A stretch of DNA of 64,000 nucleotides, taken from positions 1-64,000 of the forward strand of contig WUAI01000002.1 in the NCBI GenBank assembly GCA_009827225.1. Direction: 5' to 3'. Positions 5,074 through 62,511 of this stretch are shown one piece after another. Made by a program: the position numbers and the translations under genes. A model generated the notes under the pieces. That model worked only from the letters and a program-made list of their open reading frames with translations. It searched no databases and was not told where the DNA came from. This stretch comes from Flavobacteriaceae bacterium (GTDB taxonomy: Bacteria > Bacteroidota > Bacteroidia > Flavobacteriales > Flavobacteriaceae). Numbering within the stretch: position 1 is the first letter of the stretch; every line of letters starts with the position of its first letter.

Positions 5074-5820
5074 TTACATTTTACGTACACTTCCTGAAGC
5101 ACCGTCTTTTACAGATACGGCGGTAGGATCTCCGTAATAGCGAATGTCACCTCCACTGGAAGCACGTCCTTCAATTTCTTCCCGAACGTTCACCACTATA
5201 TCGGCACCGCTTGAGGCATTTGCTTTACACTTCTTAACTTCCAGATCTCGAGCTTTCAGATCGCTACCACTGGAGGCTTCCGCCACCAATCGCTCTGCAC
5301 GTCCCGAAACCTTTAGATCGGCACCACTGCTTACATCGGCATACACTTCCTTGGCGATGATCTCTACTTCGAGATCAGCACCACTACTGCTATCCAAGGA
5401 TAGATTTTCGCTTTTTATTACCGAGTTGCTGATCACGTCCGATCCACTAGATGCTGATACCTTGTTCAATGAAACGTAGGTAACGTGTACTTTTTGAGAC
5501 TTTGACCTGCGAATGCTTTTGTTAGTACCAATTCTCAGCTCACCGTTCGTAATTTCGGTCTCGATCACCTCCATAAGGTTCTCATCCGCTTCCACAACGA
5601 TTTTGTTTTCGTCTCCTTCGGTCAGGAATACGTCCAGTCCTGCACTTCCTTTTACAGCATCGAAGTCACTGGTTACGGGTCGGTCTTCGGTTACGACATT
5701 TCCGTTCCCTGATACTTGTCCTAATTGAATATCGAAGTTACAGGCGGTTAAAGATATACCGATCAATGCCGCTGCTATTAATTTGATTGATTTCATGATT
5801 GTTTTGATTTTAGTTTCCAA
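5074..5820 (-). CDS. Head GIN domain (DUF2807) lipoprotein
   Basis: Lipobox-like LTAC and repetitive SSGSDL/SSGADL beta-solenoid repeats. Confidence 0.85.
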   Translation of the reverse strand: METKIKTIMKSIKLIAAALIGISLTACNFDIQLGQVSGNGNVVTEDRPVTSDFDAVKGSAGLDVFLTEGDENKIVVEADENLMEVIETEITNGELRIGTNKSIRRSKSQKVHVTYVSLNKVSASSGSDVISNSVIKSENLSLDSSSGADLEVEIIAKEVYADVSSGADLKVSGRAERLVAEASSGSDLKARDLEVKKCKANASSGADIVVNVREEIEGRASSGGDIRYYGDPTAVSVKDGASGSVRKM

Positions 5821-7594
5821 TTTTCACGTTGATTGAGTCGGCGGGATCGACAGTTTCTATTTCGATCCCATCCTCATCTATGATTAATTTATCACCGTCG
5901 TCGTCCTGAATTTTCAGTCCTTCGTCGTCTATTTTAATGTATTCACCTGAGTCGTTTTTGATGTATACTCCACCATCGTCATCGGTCCAGTCCTCTTCCC
6001 ATTCTTCGGTGGTTTTTTCCGGACAATCCAGGCAACGTGTACGTCCGTCCTCAATGAGCAGGAATTGCTCTTCGTCGCCATTATCCAGTATGTCCCGATA
6101 ATAAGAGTCATTTCTATGGAATGAATAGGTGTTATCATCAGCATAAAGAATAGTTCCTATCGGCAAGTATATAATGGCCTCCACTTCCTGGTCCCGATAT
6201 TTGTTTTCGAAATCGGTAGTGAGATAGGCGTTCATTCCTAGGCTCGAGGTGGCGCTATCGTATGAATAATCATAATTAATAGCCTGCGCTCTTTCCTTAG
6301 CTGCGAGATAGTCGCTTCCTTCAGCACGCTTTTCGATAACGACGCGTCCAACGGAGTCGTTCGTAGATCTCACGATCAATCGGATATCGGTAGAATAGAT
6401 CAGTTTTTCGTCGTTGTCATCATATTTGATGTCCAGTCTACCTCTGCGTCTTGCATCGTATTCATATTTCTCGTTAGAGATCATTTTCAGATTCAACGTA
6501 TCCCCGCTTTTCACGGGCAAGGTATATTCACTGATATATTCTCCATCGAAAGCTGTTTCAGTGGCTTGTCGGATACCTAGTATTCCCAGTCCGATGATAG
6601 ACCCTAACCAAACCACGAATAGGATGATCTTAGCGGGTGTTCCAATGGATTTCAGGTTATTGATAAGCATCTTCAGCCCCAGGATGAACAGCACAAAGAA
6701 TGGTATTCCTACTGCAAACAAAGTGAGCAGGGATACAAACCATATCGGTGCATTGGTGGTATCCACTAATTGGTACCAGTCCATGAATTCACCGTGACCC
6801 CATATTCCAAAGGTTCCTGCAGTGAACAGACCGATGATGAGTCCTACCAGGGTGGTAAGTGCCACTATGATTAAAATAATTCCAAAGAATTTGACAAATA
6901 TTTTTAAAAGTGTAAGAAGGATACTACCGAGCGTATCGAAAAAACTGGTGGCACCACTTTTTACTTTATTCCCGTATTTGTCGTAGTCTACGTTTTTTAT
7001 CCTATCGGAGACATCTTCATATCCTTCTTTAAACTTTTTTTCAATATTGGAGATATTTATGGGTTCCCCGGTCATCTTCAATTTGTCTGAAGTGGTTACC
7101 GCTGCCGGTACCAGGATCCAGAACAATATGTAGATCACAATGAAGATTCCACTTGAGAACAGGGTGAATAAAATCCAGAACAGGCGCACCCATACGGCAT
7201 CAATACCCAGGTAGTGTCCTAATCCGGATGAAACACCGGCAATAAATTTATTGTCCTCGTCTCTGAAAAGTTGTTTGCTGGAGGATCTTTGTTTTCTTGA
7301 TTTTGGTGGAGCATCCTCAAAGATCTCATCGTCCACCATATAATCTTCGGGCTGACCCATAACTGCGATCACCTCGTCGAGTTCCTTTATTGTCACTACC
7401 TGTGTACTTCTTTCCAGTTTTTCTGAAAATAGTTCAGCGATTCGAGCCTCGATGTCCCGAATAATCTCATCGCTCCCCGTGGGGTCACTCAATGATCTTT
7501 TTATGGCATCCAGATAGCGTTGAAGTTTTCCAAAAGCATCTTCATCGATGTGGAAAAATGTTCCTGCTAAATTAATATTTACTGTCTTGTTCAT
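5810..7594 (-). CDS. PspC domain membrane protein with acidic repetitive C-terminus
   Basis: FRDEDNKFIAGVSSGLGHYLGIDAVWVRLFWILFTLFSSG PspC core plus further TM helices. Confidence 0.85.
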   Translation of the reverse strand: MNKTVNINLAGTFFHIDEDAFGKLQRYLDAIKRSLSDPTGSDEIIRDIEARIAELFSEKLERSTQVVTIKELDEVIAVMGQPEDYMVDDEIFEDAPPKSRKQRSSSKQLFRDEDNKFIAGVSSGLGHYLGIDAVWVRLFWILFTLFSSGIFIVIYILFWILVPAAVTTSDKLKMTGEPINISNIEKKFKEGYEDVSDRIKNVDYDKYGNKVKSGATSFFDTLGSILLTLLKIFVKFFGIILIIVALTTLVGLIIGLFTAGTFGIWGHGEFMDWYQLVDTTNAPIWFVSLLTLFAVGIPFFVLFILGLKMLINNLKSIGTPAKIILFVVWLGSIIGLGILGIRQATETAFDGEYISEYTLPVKSGDTLNLKMISNEKYEYDARRRGRLDIKYDDNDEKLIYSTDIRLIVRSTNDSVGRVVIEKRAEGSDYLAAKERAQAINYDYSYDSATSSLGMNAYLTTDFENKYRDQEVEAIIYLPIGTILYADDNTYSFHRNDSYYRDILDNGDEEQFLLIEDGRTRCLDCPEKTTEEWEEDWTDDDGGVYIKNDSGEYIKIDDEGLKIQDDDGDKLIIDEDGIEIETVDPADSINVKIGN

Positions 7595-7929
7595 TTTGTA
7601 GTTTTTTCGCTGGTTACTCTATTTACAGCCTGTTGCAACGCGCTCCAGGTAGTGTTTAATTCCTTTAAAAATAATTTACCGGTTTCGGTTAATTCATAAT
7701 ACTTTCGCGGTGGGCCACTGGTAGATTCTTCCCAGCGATAATTTAAAAGCCCTGCGTTCTTTAGTCGTGTTAACAGGGGATAAATCGTCCCTTCCACCAC
7801 GAGCATTTTCGCGTCTTTCAGAGTGTCCAGAATATCGCTGGTATAGGCTTCCCCATCTTTCAGGATGGAAAGTATGCAATATTCTAAAACCCCTTTTCGC
7901 ATTTGCGCTTTTGTGTTTTCGATTTTCAT
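7591..7929 (-). CDS. PadR family transcriptional regulator
   Basis: MRKGVLEYCILSILKDGEAYTSDIL...LVVEGTIYPLLTRLKNAGLLNYRWEESTSGPPRKYYELTETG; start chosen at MKIENTK (ATG at 7929) rather than the longer track ORF. Confidence 0.88.
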   Translation of the reverse strand: MKIENTKAQMRKGVLEYCILSILKDGEAYTSDILDTLKDAKMLVVEGTIYPLLTRLKNAGLLNYRWEESTSGPPRKYYELTETGKLFLKELNTTWSALQQAVNRVTSEKTTK

Positions 7930-7936
7930 ATACTTA

Positions 7937-8116
7937 TTAATTTGTTCGAGACAACAATTCGTCTCTCGTGATGATATAATGAGGATTAAGTTGTTGTACG
8001 TCATACCGACATTCGGTACGCTCGATCTTGCTGATCACTCCGATTTCTTCGGAAGGGATCTCGCCGTGTACTACGTTGAGTACAATGGCCAATAATATAC
8101 TAACTAACGTGCTCAT
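7937..8116 (-). CDS. Small 59-aa protein with hydrophobic N-terminus (below the ORF-track cutoff)
   Basis: Read from sequence: MSTLVSILLAIVLNVVHGEIPSEEIGVISKIERTECRYDVQQLNPHYIITRDELLSRTN*; ATG overlaps the 3' end of the DUF4870 gene and the stop is 7 bp upstream of the PadR start. Confidence 0.6.
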   Translation of the reverse strand: MSTLVSILLAIVLNVVHGEIPSEEIGVISKIERTECRYDVQQLNPHYIITRDELLSRTN

Positions 8117-11156: not shown

Positions 11157-11227
11157 CAAAAGTGAGAAGAATACCCCATCGGCCAAATAAAGAAATACCG
11201 AACTGTAAAAAGAATGGATTGAATTGT
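11157..11227 (-). promoter_or_regulatory. Predicted LytTR-type direct-repeat operator/promoter (P4)
   Basis: Minus strand: ACAATTCAA-N12-ACAGTTCGG-N33-CACTTTTG; ACAGTTCGG fits the LytTR half-site pattern [TA][AC][CA]GTTN[AG][TG]. Confidence 0.7.
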
Positions 11228-27789: not shown

Positions 27790-28797
27790 TTATTTCTTTA
27801 CAAACTTTAAGGTGGTGCTTCCCTGTGTAGTGTTCACTTTCAGAAAATATATTCCACTTTGCATGGCTGAAATATCAAGGTTTTGAGAATTTCTCCCCAA
27901 ATTTCCTGACAATTCTTGCATCATGGTTTTACCTGAAATATCTACAATGCTTAATGCCTTTAGTTCTATGGAGGCATCCAGATCCAGCTGAATTTGATCG
28001 CTCGCCGGATTAGGGTATAAAGACATGAGGGATTTTAATTTGATGTCCTCCGTTGCCAGGAAATCGTCGTACAATTGCTGGAGCAAATCGATGGGTTCGA
28101 TACCCGAGGCCTGTTCTCCCACATTCAAACGCAAATAAGGGCTTCCGGGCGCATCTGTAGCCTTATACACTTGAATATATGCTGTCGTTGAGGAGGTGCC
28201 TGCCGCTAGACAACGTTCATCTGCTCCGGCGAAATTGGCTCCCTGCATGGCAGCCATAAGTTTGTCGGCCAGGGTTCCTGATGTATTATTGAAATTATCT
28301 TCCATATTATCGATCACACTTACGTCCAACAAAATATTCCCCTGGATACTGTAAGTGGCACCTTGCCGATCTTCTTTGTAGTCATCCGCCATGCTCCCAG
28401 TCCAGCCTGCTGTTCTTGGATCTACAAATTCATCCAGATCTACGATGCCATACTGCCGGTATTCCGGATCAAAACCCTGAGCAGAACAAGCATCGTTCAA
28501 CAACAGCCAGTCAATTATTTCGGATGGGCTGGAACCCAATTCCATTTGTTCGATAGCATTTTGCAAGTTGGTGTTAGGGATACAAACCCAGGCCTGGGAA
28601 TTCACACCACCGCGTGCAGGAATGATATCGTTAATGATATCTATGATCCCCTGGTTACCGATACCAGTAACACATGAGGCTCCCGCAGAACCGATATCAC
28701 CAGTTACGGGATCGACCGCGATAATCGAAAAAGTGTCCTGAGCAGACAACTGAAATGTGCCCAGTAAGGCAAGAAAAAGAATGTAAAAGTTTTTCAT
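27790..28797 (-). CDS. DUF1028 domain secreted protein with T9SS sorting domain
   Basis: DTFSIIAVDPVTGDIGSAGASCV... plus LYPNPASDQIQL...GIYFLKVNT; start moved to ATG at 28797. Confidence 0.85.
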   Translation of the reverse strand: MKNFYILFLALLGTFQLSAQDTFSIIAVDPVTGDIGSAGASCVTGIGNQGIIDIINDIIPARGGVNSQAWVCIPNTNLQNAIEQMELGSSPSEIIDWLLLNDACSAQGFDPEYRQYGIVDLDEFVDPRTAGWTGSMADDYKEDRQGATYSIQGNILLDVSVIDNMEDNFNNTSGTLADKLMAAMQGANFAGADERCLAAGTSSTTAYIQVYKATDAPGSPYLRLNVGEQASGIEPIDLLQQLYDDFLATEDIKLKSLMSLYPNPASDQIQLDLDASIELKALSIVDISGKTMMQELSGNLGRNSQNLDISAMQSGIYFLKVNTTQGSTTLKFVKK

Positions 28798-28845: not shown

Positions 28846-28916
28846 ACGATTCGGAAGCCAATTATTACAATTCGGAATAATTTCTTCTGATATGTTACGG
28901 TTCCTTTTGATTTTTG
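28846..28916 (+). promoter_or_regulatory. Predicted LytTR-type direct-repeat operator/promoter (P1)
   Basis: ACGATTCGG-N12-ACAATTCGG-N33-GATTTTTG upstream of the TonB receptor ATG (28943). Confidence 0.7.
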
Positions 28917-28942
28917 ACTCATCAAATAAAATCAATCAGAAA

Positions 28943-31120
28943 ATGAAAGTATCCAGAAAACAACTAACCTTAATAATCATCACTACTTTATTGGCTGTAA
29001 TACTGCCATATTCGTTGCTTGCGCAGACAACGGTATCCGGCGTGGTTACTCAAAAGAATGGAACTCCGATATTGGGAGCTAATGTTTATCTGGATGGCAC
29101 CTACGACGGGGCCTCTACCGACGAGAACGGACAGTTTAATTTCACGACAGAAGAGACCGGTGTGCAAACGCTGGTGGTCTCCTTCGTTTCTTTCGAACCC
29201 TTTTATATGGCGGCAGACGTTAGCCAAATGGAAAACGTTGCTGTCATTCTGAAAGAAGACGTGAACTCTTTGGATACCGTGGTGATCTCTGCCGGGACAT
29301 TTGAAGCAGGGGACAACAGTAAAGTTTCCGTATTAAAACCACTGGATGTTGTGACGACTGCCAGTGCACTGGGAGATTTTGTGGGAGCACTGCAAACCTT
29401 ACCCGGGACCACCACAGTGGCAGAGGACGGACGACTCTTCGTACGTGGGGGAGATGCGGGCGAAACGCAGATTTTTATTGACGGGATACGAGTTTTTACG
29501 CCATACACTCCCACCACCAACAACATTCCAACTCGTGGAAGATACAGTCCGTTTCTTTTTGACGGGATCACCTTTTCCACTGGGGGTTACTCTGCGGAAT
29601 TCGGCCAGGCGTTGTCATCAGTACTATTATTGAACACCATTGATGAACCTGATCAGGACAAAACCGACATAGGAATTATGAGCGTGGGCGCCACCTTAGG
29701 GAATACTCAAAAATGGGAGAAGAGTTCTGTTAGTTTTAATGGTGCTTATATCAACCTGGCACCTTATATCGCTGCAATTCCGGACAGGAATGACTGGGAA
29801 AAACCCTTCGAAGCTTTTGCCGGCGAGAGTGTTTTCCGAAGAAAATTTGAAAAAGGTATATTCAAATTCTATGCGGCTTTCGACGCAACGAACTTTGAAC
29901 TCACCCAGGAGGATATTAATCTTGAGGATGGACTTCGATTCAAATTGAACAATAAGAATCTATATACCAATGCAAGCTATAGTGGCGATTTAGGAGAGAG
30001 CTGGAAGGTCCTCGCCGGGGGTAGTTTTACCCATGCAAATAATGACCTTGGTATTATGGACAGTGAGATTAACGATACTGAAAATTCTGCTCACTTCAAG
30101 CTGAAATTCAGAAAACGTTTCAGCAACCGTTTTAAATTAAACTTTGGTGCAGAGCAATTTCTGACCGACTTCACCGAAGATTTTCAAAATCCATTTGTGG
30201 AAGCGGGTTATGGTTTCAATAATGGAATATCTGCTGCCTTTGCCGAAGCCGACCTTATCTTCTCCCGAAAGTTTGCCATGAAATTAGGGGTGCGAGGAGA
30301 ATACAGTGACCTGTTTGGGCAATTCACAGTTTCACCAAGAGCCTCGGTGGCTTATAAAACCGGAAAATCGAGTCAGTTATCGGTTGCCTATGGTGATTTC
30401 TATCAGCAACCGTTAAATGAGATCTTGAAATTTGAGCAAGACCTGGAAGCTCAGATGACTCGCCATTATATTCTCAACTACCAGTATTCGGCCAACAACC
30501 GGATTTTCCGCGCCGAATTTTACCGAAAAGAGTATGATCAGCTCGTCACTTTTGACACCGAATTTGCCGGATTCGAGAGCAATTATGCCAACAACGGTGA
30601 TGGTTACGCCCAGGGGGTGGATATCTTCTGGAGGGACAATAATTCGATTAAGAGTGTCGATTATTGGGTGAGCTATTCCTACCTGGATTCAGAAAGAAAA
30701 TATAGAAATTTCCCGATTGAAGCGACGCCATCTTTTGCGAACTCCCACAACTTATCGGTAGTGGGGAAGTATTTCGTGAGCGACTGGAAGAGTCAGTTTG
30801 GGATCAGCTATCAATACGGGAGCGGACGTACCTATACCGATCCCAATGAGCCCGGGTTTCTTCAGAAGCAAACCAGGGATTTTAACAGTATCAGCTTTAA
30901 CTGGGCATACCTGATCTCTCAACAGAAAATCCTTTATTTCTCGGTGAACAATTTGTTGGGCTTCAAAAATATCAACGGATATCAATATGCGGATACTCCA
31001 AATGTGAACGGGATCTTTGACCGTAGAGCACTTAGACCGGCGGCCGATCAATTCTTCTTCGTAGGATTCTTCTGGACCATTAGCGAGGATGGTACCGATA
31101 ATCAGCTGGATAATCTTTAA
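28943..31120 (+). CDS. TonB-dependent receptor with N-terminal carboxypeptidase-regulatory-like domain
   Basis: TTVSGVVTQKNGTPILGANVYLDGTYDGASTDENGQF; plug region GDAGETQIFIDGIRV; C-terminal beta-barrel. Start moved to ATG at 28943. Confidence 0.85.
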   Translation: MKVSRKQLTLIIITTLLAVILPYSLLAQTTVSGVVTQKNGTPILGANVYLDGTYDGASTDENGQFNFTTEETGVQTLVVSFVSFEPFYMAADVSQMENVAVILKEDVNSLDTVVISAGTFEAGDNSKVSVLKPLDVVTTASALGDFVGALQTLPGTTTVAEDGRLFVRGGDAGETQIFIDGIRVFTPYTPTTNNIPTRGRYSPFLFDGITFSTGGYSAEFGQALSSVLLLNTIDEPDQDKTDIGIMSVGATLGNTQKWEKSSVSFNGAYINLAPYIAAIPDRNDWEKPFEAFAGESVFRRKFEKGIFKFYAAFDATNFELTQEDINLEDGLRFKLNNKNLYTNASYSGDLGESWKVLAGGSFTHANNDLGIMDSEINDTENSAHFKLKFRKRFSNRFKLNFGAEQFLTDFTEDFQNPFVEAGYGFNNGISAAFAEADLIFSRKFAMKLGVRGEYSDLFGQFTVSPRASVAYKTGKSSQLSVAYGDFYQQPLNEILKFEQDLEAQMTRHYILNYQYSANNRIFRAEFYRKEYDQLVTFDTEFAGFESNYANNGDGYAQGVDIFWRDNNSIKSVDYWVSYSYLDSERKYRNFPIEATPSFANSHNLSVVGKYFVSDWKSQFGISYQYGSGRTYTDPNEPGFLQKQTRDFNSISFNWAYLISQQKILYFSVNNLLGFKNINGYQYADTPNVNGIFDRRALRPAADQFFFVGFFWTISEDGTDNQLDNL

Positions 31121-31170
31121 TCAAATCAGACCTCTGGATGCCCTTTGTATGAAGGCTTTGAATCAACTCA

Positions 31171-31241
31171 ACAACTCATCCTGCATTTTCAACAATTCGG
31201 TAAGATTCTTTATAACAAATACCTAGGACTTGCGACTTTTG
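31171..31241 (+). promoter_or_regulatory. Predicted LytTR-type direct-repeat operator/promoter (P2)
   Basis: ACAACTCAT-N12-ACAATTCGG-N33-GACTTTTG upstream of DUF2141 ATG (31266). Confidence 0.7.
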
Positions 31242-31265
31242 AAGTGTAGATTAAAACTAATAGTT

Positions 31266-31679
31266 ATGCAAACTGTACTCACTTATTTAATGTTTCTTAT
31301 TGCCGGCTTAGGAATGCAGGCACAGAATACGATTGAAGTTACCTTAACCGATTTCAAAAGCAATGACGGATCGGTAAGAGTTGGCTTGTACGATACTAAA
31401 GGCGACTTTTTGGACAAGGAATACAAGACGTTAAAGTCTAAGATTTCGAACAAGGAAGCCGTTGTGACCTTTACGGATGTCCCGGACGGGACTTATGCGA
31501 TCTCCTGTTATCACGATGAGGATAATAATGGGGAATTAAATATGATCATGGGATTGTTCCCTTCGGAAAGTTATGGTTGTTCTAATGGAGCCAGGGGCTT
31601 TTTCGGTCCGCCAAGATGGGAAGATGCCAAGTTCGAAATCGCCGAAGGAGAGACACGTAAATTCGATATTCGATTGTAA
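31266..31679 (+). CDS. DUF2141 domain secreted protein (copy 2)
   Basis: VRVGLYDTKGDFLDKEYKT...GTYAISCYHDEDNNGELN...FFGPPRWEDAKFEI. Confidence 0.85.
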   Translation: MQTVLTYLMFLIAGLGMQAQNTIEVTLTDFKSNDGSVRVGLYDTKGDFLDKEYKTLKSKISNKEAVVTFTDVPDGTYAISCYHDEDNNGELNMIMGLFPSESYGCSNGARGFFGPPRWEDAKFEIAEGETRKFDIRL

Positions 31680-31689
31680 AATTCGCATC

Positions 31690-31806
31690 ATGTTAGGAAT
31701 CATATTAAAACTTTTAGGCAGAGATAAATCAATAAGGATAATGACTTTGATTAGCGTATCATTGCTTATCTTGGGAATTGGATGGGATGTCCTTCTGTCG
31801 CACTAA
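31690..31806 (+). CDS. Small 38-aa predicted membrane protein
   Basis: MLGIILKLLGRDKSIRIMTLISVSLLILGIGWDVLLSH, 10 bp after the DUF2141 stop. Confidence 0.4.
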   Translation: MLGIILKLLGRDKSIRIMTLISVSLLILGIGWDVLLSH

Positions 31807-31832
31807 ATTATCGCATTACAAATTTTTACAAC

Positions 31833-32498
31833 ATGGTATTAAGAATCTTGTTTACGTTCACAGTTTTAGTCTTTTTTGCTTGTAAAGACGGAAATTCAGA
31901 AAAAACAACTGAAGAGTCGAAACCAGAAATCGCCTCTATTAAAACAGATCGTTTTACAGTGCCCAAAGGCAATATGGATAGCATACAGCTTTCCAGTTAT
32001 AAAGTTGAGAATTATAAGAACGAGCAAGTAGATAATTCTATCTACTATGCGGCAGATGGAGGAATTCAGATGAAATTTACCAATGACTATGAGAATGGAC
32101 AAAAGACCCGGGTAAACTGGATCAACGCTTCCGATACTTTAGTTATGTATGTCACTTTTACTTATGGTGAAGACGGTCGCCTGATGCGAACGGAAAATTA
32201 TCGCCCGGACGGGACTTACAAAAATGGATTTGAACATCAATGGAACGAAGATGGAACTGAAGAGGCCAAAGGCCCGATTATCGATACCCTCGACTTCAAA
32301 CCGAACGCCATTTATTATTATAATGAAAAAAACGACCAGATCCGTTTGGTTGAGTACGATGAGAACGATAGCTTAATCTATAATGGATATTGGAAGTACC
32401 TCGACTATGATGACAATGGGAATTGGTTAGAGCGAACAGTTACGAGAGATGACACACTTAGAAGAATAGAAAAAAGAACAATCACATATAATCAATAA
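31833..32498 (+). CDS. Lipoprotein with MORN/YD-like repeats
   Basis: MVLRILFTFTVLVFFAC lipobox; LMRTENYRPDGTYKNGFEHQWNEDGTEE. Confidence 0.65.
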   Translation: MVLRILFTFTVLVFFACKDGNSEKTTEESKPEIASIKTDRFTVPKGNMDSIQLSSYKVENYKNEQVDNSIYYAADGGIQMKFTNDYENGQKTRVNWINASDTLVMYVTFTYGEDGRLMRTENYRPDGTYKNGFEHQWNEDGTEEAKGPIIDTLDFKPNAIYYYNEKNDQIRLVEYDENDSLIYNGYWKYLDYDDNGNWLERTVTRDDTLRRIEKRTITYNQ

Positions 32499-32502
32499 AA
32501 AA

Positions 32503-33135
32503 ATGAAACAGTTAATTATTATCGCATTAGTAGTATGTTCCTTTTCCGCTTCGGCACAAACGAAGTACGAAAAAGGTATGACCAAAGCTTTTGATCTTTG
32601 GAAGTCAGAAAAACAATGGGAAGCGGCCAATTTGTTCGAAAGAATCGCCCAGGCCGAACCCGATGAGTGGTTGCCCCCATTTTATGTGGCACAGATCAAC
32701 ATCCTATATAGTTTTAACGAGAAGGATGAGGAAAAGATCACCGCCCAATTGAAGAAGGCCCAGGACTTCTTGAACGATGCGAAAGCGATCTCCAAGGAAA
32801 ATGCCGAAATTTTGGTAGCTCAGGCGCAGTTGTATACTGCCTGGGTGGTGTTTGACGGAGCAAAATACGGGATGAATTATTCTCCGAAAATTGCCCAGAC
32901 TTACCAGGAGGCATATAATATTGAACCGGAAAACCCACGTGTGGCTTTTGGTAAAGTAGAGTGGGACCTTGGGACGGCAAGATGGTTTGGACAAGATACC
33001 AGTAAGTTCTGCGAGGATCTCGCAGCAGCTGTTGCCTTATTCGAAACTTACGAACCCAAGGGTCAGTTTTACCCGCAAGGTGGAGGGGATTATGCCAAGC
33101 AGTCGTTGGAACAAAATTGTGCTGAGAAAGAATAA
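32503..33135 (+). CDS. Secreted TPR-like protein
   Basis: Signal peptide; helical repeats AFDLWKSEKQWEAANLFERIAQAEP. Confidence 0.65.
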   Translation: MKQLIIIALVVCSFSASAQTKYEKGMTKAFDLWKSEKQWEAANLFERIAQAEPDEWLPPFYVAQINILYSFNEKDEEKITAQLKKAQDFLNDAKAISKENAEILVAQAQLYTAWVVFDGAKYGMNYSPKIAQTYQEAYNIEPENPRVAFGKVEWDLGTARWFGQDTSKFCEDLAAAVALFETYEPKGQFYPQGGGDYAKQSLEQNCAEKE

Positions 33136-33138
33136 ATC

Positions 33139-34473
33139 ATGAAGTTTATAAAAGAATTAGGCAAAGCCTTCGTAGTTGGTATATTGATCTTCGCCGTCAT
33201 AGGTGTGATTCAATATGTCACAGGTAATTTTTACCAAAGCGGAAAGGACATTATGATCGCACTGGTGTACAATCAGTTGTACGCTGTGGTGTTATACATG
33301 GTGAATGCCTATTTCTTTTTCTTTTTACTGAAACGTTACAAGGGTAAAATATATCAGTTCAAGCCGCTGGTGATCGCATTGCTGGGTGCTACCAATTTGA
33401 CCCTGGTGTCGATATTTTTCATCAACCTTTTAATTGAAACCGGATTTCAGGATCGATCCATTTCCGAATATATCGGTTCGATATCAACGGAAGACTATTA
33501 TCTAAGTACGTTGATTGCGCTGGTGGTGACGGCCATATTTTATGGAGTGCACTATTATCGGGGCAAACAAGAGCGAAGAGTAAAGGAGCAAAAGATCATT
33601 GCCAAGACGGCTTCGGCGCAGTTCGATGCATTGAAAAATCAGTTGGATCCTCATTTCCTTTTCAACAGTCTGAATGTACTCACCAGCCTGATCGAGGAAA
33701 ACCCTGCGGCTGCAACTAAGTTCACAACTTCCTTGTCCAAGGTATATCGATATGTTCTGGAACAGAAGAACAAAGAACTGGTCACCATTGAAGAAGAACT
33801 GAAGTTTGCCGAACTGTATATGTCTCTGATAAAAATGAGATTTGAGGACAGTATCGTATTCAGCATTCCGGATCGGATCAGGAACCCGGAAGCGAAAGTG
33901 GTTCCGTTGTCTCTGCAATTATTATTAGAGAATGCCGTGAAACACAATCAGGTGACGCCCAACAGGAAGTTGCACATAAGCATTTCCGAAGAAAATGGAA
34001 ACCTGGTAGTGCGAAATAATGTCCAACCAAAAAAAGTGGTGAAAGAGAGCAGTGGTGTAGGACTGCAGAATATCCGTCAGCGATATTTCCTGCTTACCAA
34101 TCGCCCTGTTGAGATCAAAGAACAGAATAATGAATTCAGTGTGGCAATTCCGTTGCTCACTCAAAAAAATGTTACAACCGTTATGACAACACAAGAAAAT
34201 TATATATCAGCAAAGAAATACGACCGTGCTAAAAAGTATGTACAGGAGCTTAAAGGATTTTACATCCATTTCTCTATCTATTTAATCATGGTGCCAGTAT
34301 TTATCTATTTGAACTACATAAGCACCAGTTTTCCATGGGCATTTTTCCCGATCATAGGTTGGGGAGCCGGCGTATCCGGGCATGCGATGGAGGTGTTTAA
34401 TTACAACCCATTTCTTGGAAAGAACTGGGAGGAGAGAAAAATACGCGAACTCATGGACAAAGACGATCTGTAA
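33139..34473 (+). CDS. LytS-family sensor histidine kinase with C-terminal 2TM domain
   Basis: FDALKNQLDPHFLFNSLNVLTSLI (His_kinase), LLLENAVKHN, SSGVGLQNIRQRY, then KKYDRAKKYVQELKGFYIHFSIYLI...KNWEERKIRELMDKDD. Confidence 0.88.
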   Translation: MKFIKELGKAFVVGILIFAVIGVIQYVTGNFYQSGKDIMIALVYNQLYAVVLYMVNAYFFFFLLKRYKGKIYQFKPLVIALLGATNLTLVSIFFINLLIETGFQDRSISEYIGSISTEDYYLSTLIALVVTAIFYGVHYYRGKQERRVKEQKIIAKTASAQFDALKNQLDPHFLFNSLNVLTSLIEENPAAATKFTTSLSKVYRYVLEQKNKELVTIEEELKFAELYMSLIKMRFEDSIVFSIPDRIRNPEAKVVPLSLQLLLENAVKHNQVTPNRKLHISISEENGNLVVRNNVQPKKVVKESSGVGLQNIRQRYFLLTNRPVEIKEQNNEFSVAIPLLTQKNVTTVMTTQENYISAKKYDRAKKYVQELKGFYIHFSIYLIMVPVFIYLNYISTSFPWAFFPIIGWGAGVSGHAMEVFNYNPFLGKNWEERKIRELMDKDDL

Positions 34474-34474
34474 G

Positions 34475-34545
34475 ACAATTGGGGAATTAATTTCAACAAT
34501 TGGGACCCTTTGTTTTTCTTCGGAAATGAGCGTTAGATATCTTTG
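34475..34545 (+). promoter_or_regulatory. Predicted LytTR-type direct-repeat operator/promoter (P3)
   Basis: ACAATTGGG-N12-ACAATTGGG-N33-TATCTTTG directly after the kinase stop and 19 bp before the 2TM gene ATG (34565). Confidence 0.75.
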
Positions 34546-34564: not shown

Positions 34565-34903
34565 ATGGAATTCGATAAGGATAAAAAATATTTAGGTTAC
34601 GACAATAACAGGGAAAACAAGTACCTGAGAGCCAAGGAACGTGTAGCTGAGATTAGAAAGTTCTATACCAGCCTTATGTTCTATGTGATCTTTATTTCCT
34701 TTTTGGCAGCATTGAATTACTATACCAACGAATGGAGATATATGTGGTTCCTTTGGGCTGCATTTGGATGGGGTATCGGATTGGTATTCCAGGCGGCCAA
34801 AGCCTTTAAATGGGCTCCTTTTATGAATAAGGACTGGGAAGAAAGAAAGATCAAAGAGTTTATGGACGAAGAAGAAAATGGCTCAACGGGCCGTTGGAAT
34901 TAA
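34565..34903 (+). CDS. 2TM domain protein
   Basis: KYLRAKERVAEIRKFYTSLMFYVIFISFL...KDWEERKIKEFMDEEE. Confidence 0.85.
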   Translation: MEFDKDKKYLGYDNNRENKYLRAKERVAEIRKFYTSLMFYVIFISFLAALNYYTNEWRYMWFLWAAFGWGIGLVFQAAKAFKWAPFMNKDWEERKIKEFMDEEENGSTGRWN

Positions 34904-34913
34904 TACGAACGTT

Positions 34914-35249
34914 ATGGATGCTAATTACGAAAAATTTGAAAGAGCTAAAAAAAGAGTGAAGTCCATTCGAGGATTTTACGGACATCTTATATTCTTCTTC
35001 ATTTTTATGGTCCTTTTGTATGTGGTACGGTTTGCCATCTTACCGCGAACCGATCTGATGCTCGAGGATGAAGGCTTCATTAACTGGCTTGATTGGAATA
35101 CGTATTTGCTTCCCATTTTATGGGGAATAGCGATCGTGATTCATGGAATTTCTGTGTATCGCTTTAAGTTTATGAAGCGATGGGAAGAGAAAAAGATCAA
35201 CGAGTTTTTGGAAAGAGAAGAACAAGAATCTAAACAAAACTGGCAATAA
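34914..35249 (+). CDS. 2TM domain protein
   Basis: YEKFERAKKRVKSIRGFYGHLIFFFIFMVLL...KRWEEKKINEFLEREE; start moved to ATG at 34914. Confidence 0.85.
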   Translation: MDANYEKFERAKKRVKSIRGFYGHLIFFFIFMVLLYVVRFAILPRTDLMLEDEGFINWLDWNTYLLPILWGIAIVIHGISVYRFKFMKRWEEKKINEFLEREEQESKQNWQ

Positions 35250-35261
35250 ATAGTAGGAATT

Positions 35262-35591
35262 ATGAAAGACTCAGGAGAAAATAAATACGATAGAGCAAAG
35301 AAGAAAGTAGATGAAATAAAAGGGTTTTATTCTCACCTCTTGGTATATTTAATAGTTAATATCGCTTTGATCCTTGTTCAATTGGGGATCTTTAACGGCT
35401 TTTCGAATATCAGTTATCCGGGTTGGGCATTATTCAGCACGCCTTTCTTCTGGGGTATAGGTCTTATGTTTCATGGTCTTTATGTATTTCAGCATAAGTT
35501 CACCTTCTTTAAGAACTGGGAAGAACGCAAGATTAAAGAGTATATGGAGAAGGATGAAGAGGAATACAAGAATACCACCAAGTGGAATTAA
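35262..35591 (+). CDS. 2TM domain protein
   Basis: NKYDRAKKKVDEIKGFYSHLLVYLIVNIALI...KNWEERKIKEYMEKDE. Confidence 0.85.
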   Translation: MKDSGENKYDRAKKKVDEIKGFYSHLLVYLIVNIALILVQLGIFNGFSNISYPGWALFSTPFFWGIGLMFHGLYVFQHKFTFFKNWEERKIKEYMEKDEEEYKNTTKWN

Positions 35592-35617: not shown

Positions 35618-36373
35618 ATGAATGTAATTATTATAGAAGATGAAAAACCTTCGGCACGGCGCCTTCAGCGTATGCTGGAAAGAGTGAATGTGCAAGTGGA
35701 CCAGATGCTCCACAGCGTGGAGGAATCAGTAGAATGGTTTGCCAACAATGATCACCCCGATCTAATCTTTTTGGATATTCAGTTAAGCGATGGGCTGTCG
35801 TTTGAAATATTTGATGAGGTAGAGGTGAACAGTGCGATCATTTTTACCACAGCATTCGACGAATATGCGCTGCAGGCCTTTAAGCTGAATAGTATCGACT
35901 ATTTATTAAAACCTATCGATGAGGAAGAATTGGAAAAGGCGGTTCAAAAATTCAATGAGCGCGCACCCCAGGCTCAGAATGTCCAGCTCAATTTTGACGA
36001 TATTAAAAAACTACTTACCAATCCGGTGGAACGTGAATACAAGAAGCGGTTTACTACGAGAATTGGTCAACATATCAAGATGATTCCTGTGGATGAGATC
36101 GAGTGTTTCTTTTCTGAAAACAAGGGTACTTATGCGCATACTCGTGATGGCAGGAACTATCTTCTGGATCCTACCCTGGAACAGCTAGAGGGCGAAATCT
36201 CTCCGGAAACTTTCTTTAGGATCAACCGGAAGTTCTACGTAAATATTAATGCGATCAAAGACATTATAAGTTATACCAACAGTCGCTTACAGCTCAAACT
36301 GTACAGCTACAACGAACAAGAGGTCATCGTGGCTCGCGAACGGGTCAAGGATTTCAAATTGTGGTTGGAATAG
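35618..36373 (+). CDS. LytTR family response regulator
   Basis: Receiver domain DLIFLDIQLSDGLSFEIF...AFDEYALQAFKLNSIDYLLKPI; LytTR domain C-terminal (YKKRFTTRIGQHIKMIPVDEIECFFSENKGTYAHTRDGRNYLLD). Confidence 0.9.
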   Translation: MNVIIIEDEKPSARRLQRMLERVNVQVDQMLHSVEESVEWFANNDHPDLIFLDIQLSDGLSFEIFDEVEVNSAIIFTTAFDEYALQAFKLNSIDYLLKPIDEEELEKAVQKFNERAPQAQNVQLNFDDIKKLLTNPVEREYKKRFTTRIGQHIKMIPVDEIECFFSENKGTYAHTRDGRNYLLDPTLEQLEGEISPETFFRINRKFYVNINAIKDIISYTNSRLQLKLYSYNEQEVIVARERVKDFKLWLE

Positions 36374-36378
36374 ATCGG

Positions 36379-37578
36379 CTACTTTTTTTCTTCAATTCGG
36401 TTGTCATGGAAGGCCGAGGGTAATAATTTCGGGATCAATTTGACAAATAATGGAAGTAAGATCGCGCCACCGGGTAACATAAAGATGGTGAGCGAGGGGA
36501 TGGTTTTAAAAATATCCAATAACTGATCTTTTACTTTGGTCTTCTCTTCCGAAGTGAGTTCCCGAATGGTCGACTGACTCAATAACAACAACAGTTCTCC
36601 ACTTTCGTTCAGTTCTTTAAGCAGTCTTTTCTGGTTTCTTAATATCAGCAAGCGAACGGTATTACTCGACTGTTTGTAAAAATGTCGGACCGGGTGCGTA
36701 TACTCGAATAGCTTTATTTTGGTAGCATTCTCTGCGGAAAACTGCTGAAGAGTTAATATGCAATCTTCCAAATAAGAAGGAGTGAATCCAAGTTCACTTG
36801 CGAGTGTCTGAAGGAATTGCAACTCGCTCTCATCCAATTCACGATCGTCCCAAACCGCGAGGCAACAAATGTCTAGCACATATTGCCTTTCAAGCACAGA
36901 CATTTCCGAAGTAAACAGCGCGGAGATCTGGCTGGTAGGCTCTGCATTGGTCATGAACTCCGAAGAAGAGGACACCATTTCAATAACCAGATGATCATAT
37001 TTGTTTTTAACCTGTTTGGATTTCAGTGCCAGTACGCTGCATTCGATAAGGACATGTTCCAAAGACTCCAGATAATCTTTGAGAGAACCGGGTTCTTTCA
37101 AATATTGCTGAAAGGCCAATACATCTACATAAAGCAAGGCATAGGTGAGGAGGGAAGCGGTGTCCTTTTTTAATAAGGTGTTCGCTTCTTGCAACCTTGC
37201 CGACAGTATTGCTTCCAGGTTATCGCTGGGGGATTTTGTAAAACGTAATTTCTGAAAGAAACTCCTTTTTCCTCGCTCTATGGACTTATAAAAAGTAATA
37301 AGCGTATCCAGGAATGCTTCGTGTGTGGCATCCTTGTATTTCAATTGATAGGCATACAAGAAGGCGTGAAACAAATTGATTTTAGTGAGTTCTTCTTTAG
37401 TTAGGTTAAGCTGACTAACCGGCTTCTCTAACATGGTGGTCACCGAAACTCCATAAATGAATCCGGTTTTTTTTAGATTGGTGTAAAATACTTCATGATC
37501 GGCGGAGTTTTGTATAAGATGCTCAGGATCAAAGCCATTTAAAAATTTAGGAATCCAGCCGTTCGAAGAAGGGTTCAT
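36379..37578 (-). CDS. LETM1-related biofilm-associated protein (TerB-like region)
   Basis: C-terminal LFKTIPSLTIFMLPGGAILLPLFVKLIPKLLPSAF LETM1-like motif; EMSVLERQYVLDICCLAVWDDRELDESELQFLQTLASELGF TerB-like. Confidence 0.75.
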   Translation of the reverse strand: MNPSSNGWIPKFLNGFDPEHLIQNSADHEVFYTNLKKTGFIYGVSVTTMLEKPVSQLNLTKEELTKINLFHAFLYAYQLKYKDATHEAFLDTLITFYKSIERGKRSFFQKLRFTKSPSDNLEAILSARLQEANTLLKKDTASLLTYALLYVDVLAFQQYLKEPGSLKDYLESLEHVLIECSVLALKSKQVKNKYDHLVIEMVSSSSEFMTNAEPTSQISALFTSEMSVLERQYVLDICCLAVWDDRELDESELQFLQTLASELGFTPSYLEDCILTLQQFSAENATKIKLFEYTHPVRHFYKQSSNTVRLLILRNQKRLLKELNESGELLLLLSQSTIRELTSEEKTKVKDQLLDIFKTIPSLTIFMLPGGAILLPLFVKLIPKLLPSAFHDNRIEEKK

Positions 37579-60706: not shown

Positions 60707-61783
60707 ATGGCTGTCATGACGGAATTATTAAATCGGCGAATTTTGGGAGTAAGGATCAAAGAGATATTGATCACTTTCCTAATTTATATGCTCTTTGCTT
60801 TCTCTTACCATCTCACTCTATGGGTTAATAGAATGGGCTACAACGACCCGGATGATTCCTTGTTCAACGCCAAACAATTTTTTACCAGGGGAGGGATGCA
60901 GTATTTCATTTTCTTCCTGTTGACCATTCCCACATGGTTGTTAATTTTTAAACTTTTACGAAAGTGGAAATTGGGTTATCGTTTAATGATACACCTTGTA
61001 ACACTGCCCGTTTTTGTATTTCTGGCTCAGAAAGCCTATTATTTTTATTCCGAGCAATTCGGATTCTGGCATCTGCAGGGGAGTGGTCAGGTATGGGATA
61101 TTTATATACCGGCCCTGTTTTACATTCTACAGTTCGGAATTTTTCACGCTTACGAATACTTTGTGGACAACCAGAGGAAACTCAAATTGGAAGGAGAATT
61201 ACGCACAGCTGCCCTAAAAAGTGAACTTTCGGCCATTAAAGCACAACTCAATCCGCATTTTCTGTACAACGTTTTCAATACCATCAACGCTTCGGTACCT
61301 TCTGAAAATGAAAAGACGCGACATTTGATTGCGGAACTTTCAGATTTATTCCGTTATCAGCTTCAAGCCTCTAAGGAAGACCTGGTAACCTTAAAGGAAG
61401 AATTGGATTTTATTCGGAAATATCTGGACCTGGAAAAAGAACGATACGGAGAACGCCTCGAAATTCACATTAATGTGGATCCGGATTTATATTCGGAAAA
61501 GATTCCTCCTATGATTCTGCAACCATTGGTTGAGAATTCTGTGAAGCACGGACTTTCTTCACTTGTTGATGGTGGTTCGATCAGTATTACCATTTTTAAG
61601 GAAGGCGATTCTCTAAAGTTTGAAATCGCAGATACCGGTGTTGGAGTCAAAGACAAGAAAAAATTGTTCGAAAATGGTGTGGGCCTTACCAATACTCGCA
61701 TCAGGCTTCAAAAAATGTATCAGTCGAAAATGGAGATTTTGGATAATGAACCGCGTGGTTTAAAAATTAAATTCAGCATTTGA
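60707..61783 (+). CDS. LytS-family sensor histidine kinase
   Basis: KAQLNPHFLYNVFNTINASV; MILQPLVENSVKHGL; GVGLTNTRIRLQKMY. Confidence 0.9.
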   Translation: MAVMTELLNRRILGVRIKEILITFLIYMLFAFSYHLTLWVNRMGYNDPDDSLFNAKQFFTRGGMQYFIFFLLTIPTWLLIFKLLRKWKLGYRLMIHLVTLPVFVFLAQKAYYFYSEQFGFWHLQGSGQVWDIYIPALFYILQFGIFHAYEYFVDNQRKLKLEGELRTAALKSELSAIKAQLNPHFLYNVFNTINASVPSENEKTRHLIAELSDLFRYQLQASKEDLVTLKEELDFIRKYLDLEKERYGERLEIHINVDPDLYSEKIPPMILQPLVENSVKHGLSSLVDGGSISITIFKEGDSLKFEIADTGVGVKDKKKLFENGVGLTNTRIRLQKMYQSKMEILDNEPRGLKIKFSI

Positions 61784-62511
61784 TGCAAAAAGTAATAATT
61801 GTAGATGACGAGGCCGCGGGTCGTAAATTGATCAAGGAATATCTTGAAGATTTTCAGGAACTGGTCATTATTGCCGAGGCAAACAATGGGGTAGATGCTG
61901 TGAAGGTGATCAATAAGTTCAAGCCGGACCTGGTTTTTATGGATATACAGATGCCAGGACTTACGGGATTTGAAGTTTTGAACCACCTCGAGATGATTCC
62001 TCAAATCATTTTTTCGACTGCTTACGATAAATATGCTTTGCGAGCTTTTGATGTTCATGCGATCGATTATTTACTGAAGCCATATACCAAAGAGAGATTT
62101 CAGAAGGCCATCGATAAACTAGACTTTTCAAAGAACCAGGAAGGGATTGCACCTCTGGCAGTAGATGTGGTTATGAACAGTTCCACCTACCCCGAAAGAA
62201 TACTGGTGGAGTATCAGAAAAAATTCATTACCATTTCAACCAAAGAGATCATTTGGATCGAAGCATATGGGGACTATTCCAAATTGCATACTGCCAGGGA
62301 AAAGTATGTCAGTAATTTTGGAATTTCTCAATTGGAGGACAAGTTGGATCCAAAGAGTTTCCTGAGAGTGCATCGATCGTCTATGATCAATATCAACGAA
62401 ATCAAACAAGTCGACAAATACTCTAAATCCTTTGATATGTCTATGAGTAACGGGGACGTTGTGAGAGTGAGTCGAGGTTATATGGACGCCGTCAAGAAGC
62501 TAATCTTTTAG
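61780..62511 (+). CDS. LytTR family response regulator
   Basis: DLVFMDIQMPGLTGFEVL...AFDVHAIDYLLKPY; LytTR domain; 4-bp overlap with kinase. Confidence 0.92.
   Translation: MMQKVIIVDDEAAGRKLIKEYLEDFQELVIIAEANNGVDAVKVINKFKPDLVFMDIQMPGLTGFEVLNHLEMIPQIIFSTAYDKYALRAFDVHAIDYLLKPYTKERFQKAIDKLDFSKNQEGIAPLAVDVVMNSSTYPERILVEYQKKFITISTKEIIWIEAYGDYSKLHTAREKYVSNFGISQLEDKLDPKSFLRVHRSSMININEIKQVDKYSKSFDMSMSNGDVVRVSRGYMDAVKKLIF

Follow-up and report, generated by a model that had tools for sequence, protein, structure and literature searches.

Gene organization of the locus

The window, i.e., the whole stretch of 64,000 nucleotides of a Flavobacteriaceae genome that was analysed, holds a row of forward-strand genes that runs from a TonB-dependent receptor to a LytTR response regulator, together with a distant DUF2141 gene on the reverse strand. 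Four sites, numbered P1 to P4, precede these genes, which are as follows:

28943..31120, +, TonB-dependent receptor of 725 aa with a CarboxypepD_reg-like domain and a plug (Pfam), following P1
31266..31679, +, secreted DUF2141 protein with which the P2 operon begins (Pfam)
31833..32498, +, putative lipoprotein (open reading frame list)
32503..33135, +, secreted TPR-like protein, so labelled in an earlier note on this DNA; conserved in the locus
33139..34473, +, LytS-type histidine kinase with a C-terminal 2TM domain (Pfam His_kinase PF06580 and 2TM), conserved beside LytTR
34565..34903, +, 2TM-domain protein a (Pfam)
34914..35249, +, 2TM-domain protein b (Pfam)
35262..35591, +, 2TM-domain protein c (Pfam)
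35618..36373, +, LytTR response regulator with receiver and LytTR DNA-binding domains (Pfam PF00072 and PF04397, above cut-off), the proposed binder of P1 to P4
10675..11118, -, the other secreted DUF2141 protein, encoded downstream of P4 at a distance of about 24 kb from the regulator (Pfam)

The regulator thus combines a receiver with a LytTR domain, its residue D53 is invariant across the alignment of its orthologues, and the LytS-type kinase to which it is linked is also its neighbour in the relatives. The description of this kinase in the earlier note had overlooked the C-terminal 2TM domain, which is found by Pfam and is like that of the three neighbouring proteins. A Pfam search of the lipoprotein and the TPR-like protein matched no family, and PDB and NCBIfam searches indicated no substrate for the TonB receptor.

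Other features were observed around these genes. A DUF1028 protein carrying a sorting tail for type IX secretion (27790-28734, reverse strand) is divergent from P1, an open frame of 38 codons with a hydrophobic stretch was seen by eye between the DUF2141 and lipoprotein genes (31690-31806, forward strand), and a protein that partly matches the LETM1 ribosome-binding domain (36382-37578, reverse strand) is encoded in a position that is often downstream of LytTR in the relatives.

Four sites with a common architecture

The earlier note had claimed that four promoters of 71 bp share one architecture, in which two 9-bp half-sites are followed by a -7-like box, and a direct reading bore this out to the base in letters, coordinates and the 9-12-9-33-8 spacing. 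The sites, all within 23.4 kb, were read directly as follows, with the mismatches of the repeats counted against the search pattern given below:

28846..28875, +, P1 direct repeat ACGATTCGG-N12-ACAATTCGG, one mismatch
28909..28916, +, P1 -7-like box GATTTTTG, 33 bp past the repeat, the distance at which the relatives' spacing peaks
31171..31200, +, P2 direct repeat ACAACTCAT-N12-ACAATTCGG, one mismatch
31234..31241, +, P2 -7-like box GACTTTTG
34475..34504, +, P3 direct repeat ACAATTGGG-N12-ACAATTGGG, no mismatch
34538..34545, +, P3 -7 box TATCTTTG
11198..11227, -, P4 direct repeat ACAATTCAA-N12-ACAGTTCGG, one mismatch
11157..11164, -, P4 -7-like box CACTTTTG

The window thus has pairs of direct repeats of about 9 bp, spaced as in LytTR two-component systems (12-13 bp apart) and lying upstream of a promoter. 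The pattern ACARTTSRK-N12-ACARTTSRG-N33-NANNTTTR (71 bp) was searched across the whole 3.25-Mb genome with up to three mismatches, which returned four matches with zero or one mismatch, these being P1 to P4, none with two and three with three, and the reversed control pattern had no match in the same genome under the same threshold. By a simple estimate from base composition, 0.003 matches per genome would be expected by chance at zero or one mismatch, and 1.05 at three. When the -7 box was dropped and the repeats alone were searched genome-wide, P1 to P4 still ranked at the top, with 11 further matches that have two mismatches each. Given that P1 to P4 are the sole matches with zero or one mismatch and that the reversed control is empty, the motif is not equally common elsewhere in the genome; the earlier note had named such commonness as a ground for abandoning the idea.

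It might still be argued that the repeats arose by coincidence or belong to an unrelated conserved element, considering that the window has just four copies and that three of these show a one-base difference in their half-site letters. However, the low chance estimate at this level of match, the control patterns that were also nearly empty across the search of the family genomes and the sharp conservation of the spacing in 80 relatives, which is described below, leave this reading with a negligible probability, and in practice it is already refuted.

Conservation among the Flavobacteriaceae

Orthologues of the regulator, with 57-90% identity, are present in 46 of the 60 other genomes of the family that were searched (47 of 61 when the source genome is included), and the gene order of TonB receptor, DUF2141, TPR-like protein, kinase, 2TM genes and LytTR is widely kept among the relatives. 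A profile was built on 64 sites from 40 loci of the family genomes, all of which have their -7 box at a distance of precisely 33 bp. It opens with ACARTTCA(T/G) and continues, after 12 bp that are A-rich in the centre, with ACARTTSRG; a T-rich element lies 9 bp further on, and NANNTTTR closes the profile.

Similar results were obtained from a second set of 80 named relatives, some of which are of the same species as members of the first set. Here, 126 repeat pairs with a gap of 12 were found on the gene strand, and the -7 box lies at exactly 33 bp in 122 of them, while each of the other combinations of gap and distance held at most two pairs and the opposite strand gave one. All 123 sites in the loci of these relatives precede genes of the cluster, 29 of them being followed by an orthologue of the TonB receptor, and of the 70 loci with enough upstream sequence, 63 have a site on the strand of the regulator gene and within the 4.5 kb that precede it.

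The mean pairwise identity between the sites of different genomes is 83% in the half-sites and -7 box and 73% in the T-rich element, with lower values for the spacers (47% for N12, 35% for N33), and the distance between the first and the last of these values indicates that the motif was held while its surroundings diverged. The T-rich element, which lies 9 bp after the second half-site, has at least three T in its four positions in 107 of the 123 sites of the relatives, and its position is where a -33 element would lie. The downstream box is usually (G/C)AnnTTTG and not TAnnTTTG, with a T in first place in just 11 of the 123 sites of the relatives and, in the window, at P3 only.

The regulator that probably binds the sites

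The source genome encodes 12 LytTR proteins, so the identity of the binder is what we infer from linkage and co-occurrence. At least one site was found in all 47 family genomes that have an orthologue of the 35618-36373 regulator, vs. four of the 14 in which none was detected (Fisher p ~1e-8, although the genomes share ancestry, so that both the counts and the test overstate their independence). The four orthologue-less genomes with matches to the pattern are two incomplete assemblies of the same genus, one genome that is 88% complete and G014, which is 99% complete. Seven genomes without the orthologue that encode one to five other LytTR proteins have no site. The site therefore goes with this particular orthologue and not with the presence of LytTR proteins as such, and the paired repeat is very probably the binding site of the 35618-36373 regulator. 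The proposal that this protein controls its own operon, the kinase operon, the TonB receptor and two DUF2141 genes is likewise supported by the comparative evidence.

The sites could also be LytTR operators at which another LytTR protein binds, either alone or along with the 35618-36373 regulator. An example is the sister regulator encoded at G000:C28:32970-33719, which is 43% identical to the 35618-36373 regulator, has retained FRINR and RER in its DNA-binding domain, and belongs to a group whose operons carry, in six genomes, paired repeats that are related to those of the sites, of the ACAATTCAA type and spaced by N11 or N12. Yet most of the sister repeats have a final A in place of RG, and their gap is 11 in four of seven cases. 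A sister-like regulator occurs in G015 and G030, in which neither the orthologue nor the site was found, and the sites are concentrated around the genes of the orthologue itself. Together, these points make a different binder unlikely. The 35618-36373 protein is thus retained as the probable binder, although cross-talk or overlap between the two regulators is possible. The merging of the sister operons into the regulon was considered and rejected, given that their gap and their distance to the -7 box vary. Their ACAATTCAA-type repeats, with a gap of 11 or 12, were observed in L219 (3303-3331), L220, L221, L223, L226, L228 and L236, and a separate operator type is possible there.

Sites away from the regulator and a possible link to the envelope

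In the relatives, 40 sites outside the cluster were read, 39 of which have a readable gene, and these genes include 15 that encode DUF2141, eight the same TonB receptor, nine DUF2807, three a beta-lactamase-fold protein, two a weakly DUF4440-like protein, and two singletons. The orthologues of the DUF2141 and TonB genes keep the site when they are unlinked from the regulator, so that the conservation upstream of orthologues which had been set as a check is found even where these have moved away. The second DUF2141 gene, downstream of P4, has orthologues with the site in seven genomes of the same genus, and in one relative the TPR-like protein is fused to DUF2141. The regulon first outlined was incomplete in that DUF2807 and beta-lactamase-fold genes join it in relatives.

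The site-bearing DUF2807 gene follows a PadR-PspC pair in all five relatives in which the upstream region was read, with the site located between pspC and DUF2807. PspC, HAAS-PadR and DUF2807 (Toastrack) are partners in envelope-stress systems (PMC11237479), and this partnership suggests that the LytTR regulon may have an envelope-related role, with a hint of envelope stress. The likeness to the HAAS-PadR and PspC Toastrack systems lies in the presence of the LytTR site inside such a locus in the relatives, whereas the LytTR regulon is otherwise separate from them and the corresponding locus of the source genome has no site. It would be a tentative step, and a somewhat doubtful one, to speak of an envelope-stress response throughout the Flavobacteriaceae. 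In such a response, the 2TM membrane proteins would form part of the sensor, and the LytTR regulator would drive the TonB receptor, DUF2141 and, in several genomes, the DUF2807 gene of the PadR-PspC locus.

In the source window, genes for PadR, a HAAS/PspC/Toast-rack protein and DUF2807 lie in a row at 5074-8004 on the reverse strand and form a PSP-like envelope locus. No site was found at this locus, and a scan of the DUF2807 genes of the source genome for a weak site gave none with fewer than six mismatches.

Proposed mechanism and direction of control

It is highly probable that P1 to P4 are the operators of one autoregulated two-component system, made up of the LytS-type kinase and the LytTR regulator, which would activate a small envelope regulon. 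The membrane kinase (33139-34473) would phosphorylate the response regulator (35618-36373). A pair of regulator molecules would then occupy the two 9-bp repeats in head-to-tail orientation, with 21 bp, or two helical turns, from the start of one repeat to the start of the next. Located just upstream of a weak -33/-7 promoter, the bound pair would recruit RNA polymerase and increase transcription from P3 (regulator and 2TM genes), P2 (kinase operon, including its DUF2141 gene), P1 (TonB receptor) and P4 (second DUF2141 gene). The existence of the sites is shown by the data above, as are their constant geometry, their conservation, the set of genes they precede and their co-occurrence with the regulator. 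The identity of the binder, its phosphorylation, activation over repression and the role in the envelope are the parts of this scheme that we infer.

The flavobacterial -7 box is located at -12 to -5 (PMC9723704), and on this basis the repeats of P1 to P4 would span about -75 to -46. The regulator could in principle repress these promoters, given that sequence alone cannot tell the direction of control, but the -33/-7 region is left free by the repeats, which are placed entirely on its upstream side at a constant distance, as is the case in activation by ComE and HdrR. In addition, hardly any site has a -7 box that conforms to TAnnTTTG, and the scarcity of the first T is what would be expected of promoters that need an activator. 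Repression is therefore regarded as very improbable, and activation is the direction adopted here.

Relation to known LytTR systems

The class of the regulator, LytTR two-component, is known, and the P1-P4 system is, judging from its domains and repeats, a further member. In streptococci, the ComE box is aCAnTTcaG-12-aCAgTTgaG and in most cases stands 31-32 bp ahead of the -10 site (PMC6001120). The 64-site profile agrees with this published consensus and its gap. Both systems have a LytTR response regulator and two 9-bp direct repeats with nearly the same letters and a 12-bp gap, whereas the present one occurs in another phylum, with a LytS-type kinase that bears a 2TM domain, a Bacteroidota -7 box and an envelope gene set.

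In S. mutans, autoactivation is driven by LytTR repeats that precede the -35 element by 8-11 bp (8 bp for HdrR), and the LRS, i.e., a LytTR regulator with a membrane inhibitor, is described as distinct from two-component systems (PMC6193735). The LRS HdrRM and BrsRM resemble the present system in their mostly 12-bp gap, the position close upstream of the -35 element and the autoregulatory operon with membrane proteins. On the other hand, the receiver domain and linked histidine kinase of the present regulator set it apart, and an identity with the LRS was rejected.

A PDB sequence search with the profile of the LytTR DNA-binding domain returned a single weak relative, so a fold search was used, in which full-length ComE was the best match of the regulator model and the LytTR domain of AgrA was also matched; the model is of moderate quality (mean pLDDT 73.7, pTM 0.49), and the fold matches are to be trusted at the level of domains only. 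AgrA of Staphylococcus aureus is thus alike in the fold of its LytTR domain (3bs1, 4g4k) and differs in gene set and phylum.

In the literature searched, no description of the present gene set and binding site was found, and DUF2141 is seldom mentioned there. If the proposed scheme is true, it would provide an operator sequence and a small, testable set of targets for a two-component system that 47 of the 61 genomes examined in this family possess, and would tie DUF2141, the TonB receptor and the 2TM proteins to one signal. It would also mean that nearly the same LytTR operator and spacing are used in flavobacteria and streptococci despite their different promoter boxes.

Finally, a LytTR/kinase pair was mutated in co-evolved lines of Flavobacterium johnsoniae (PMC10197871). 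The window itself contains a second pair of LytS-type kinase and LytTR regulator, at 60707-62511 on the forward strand.
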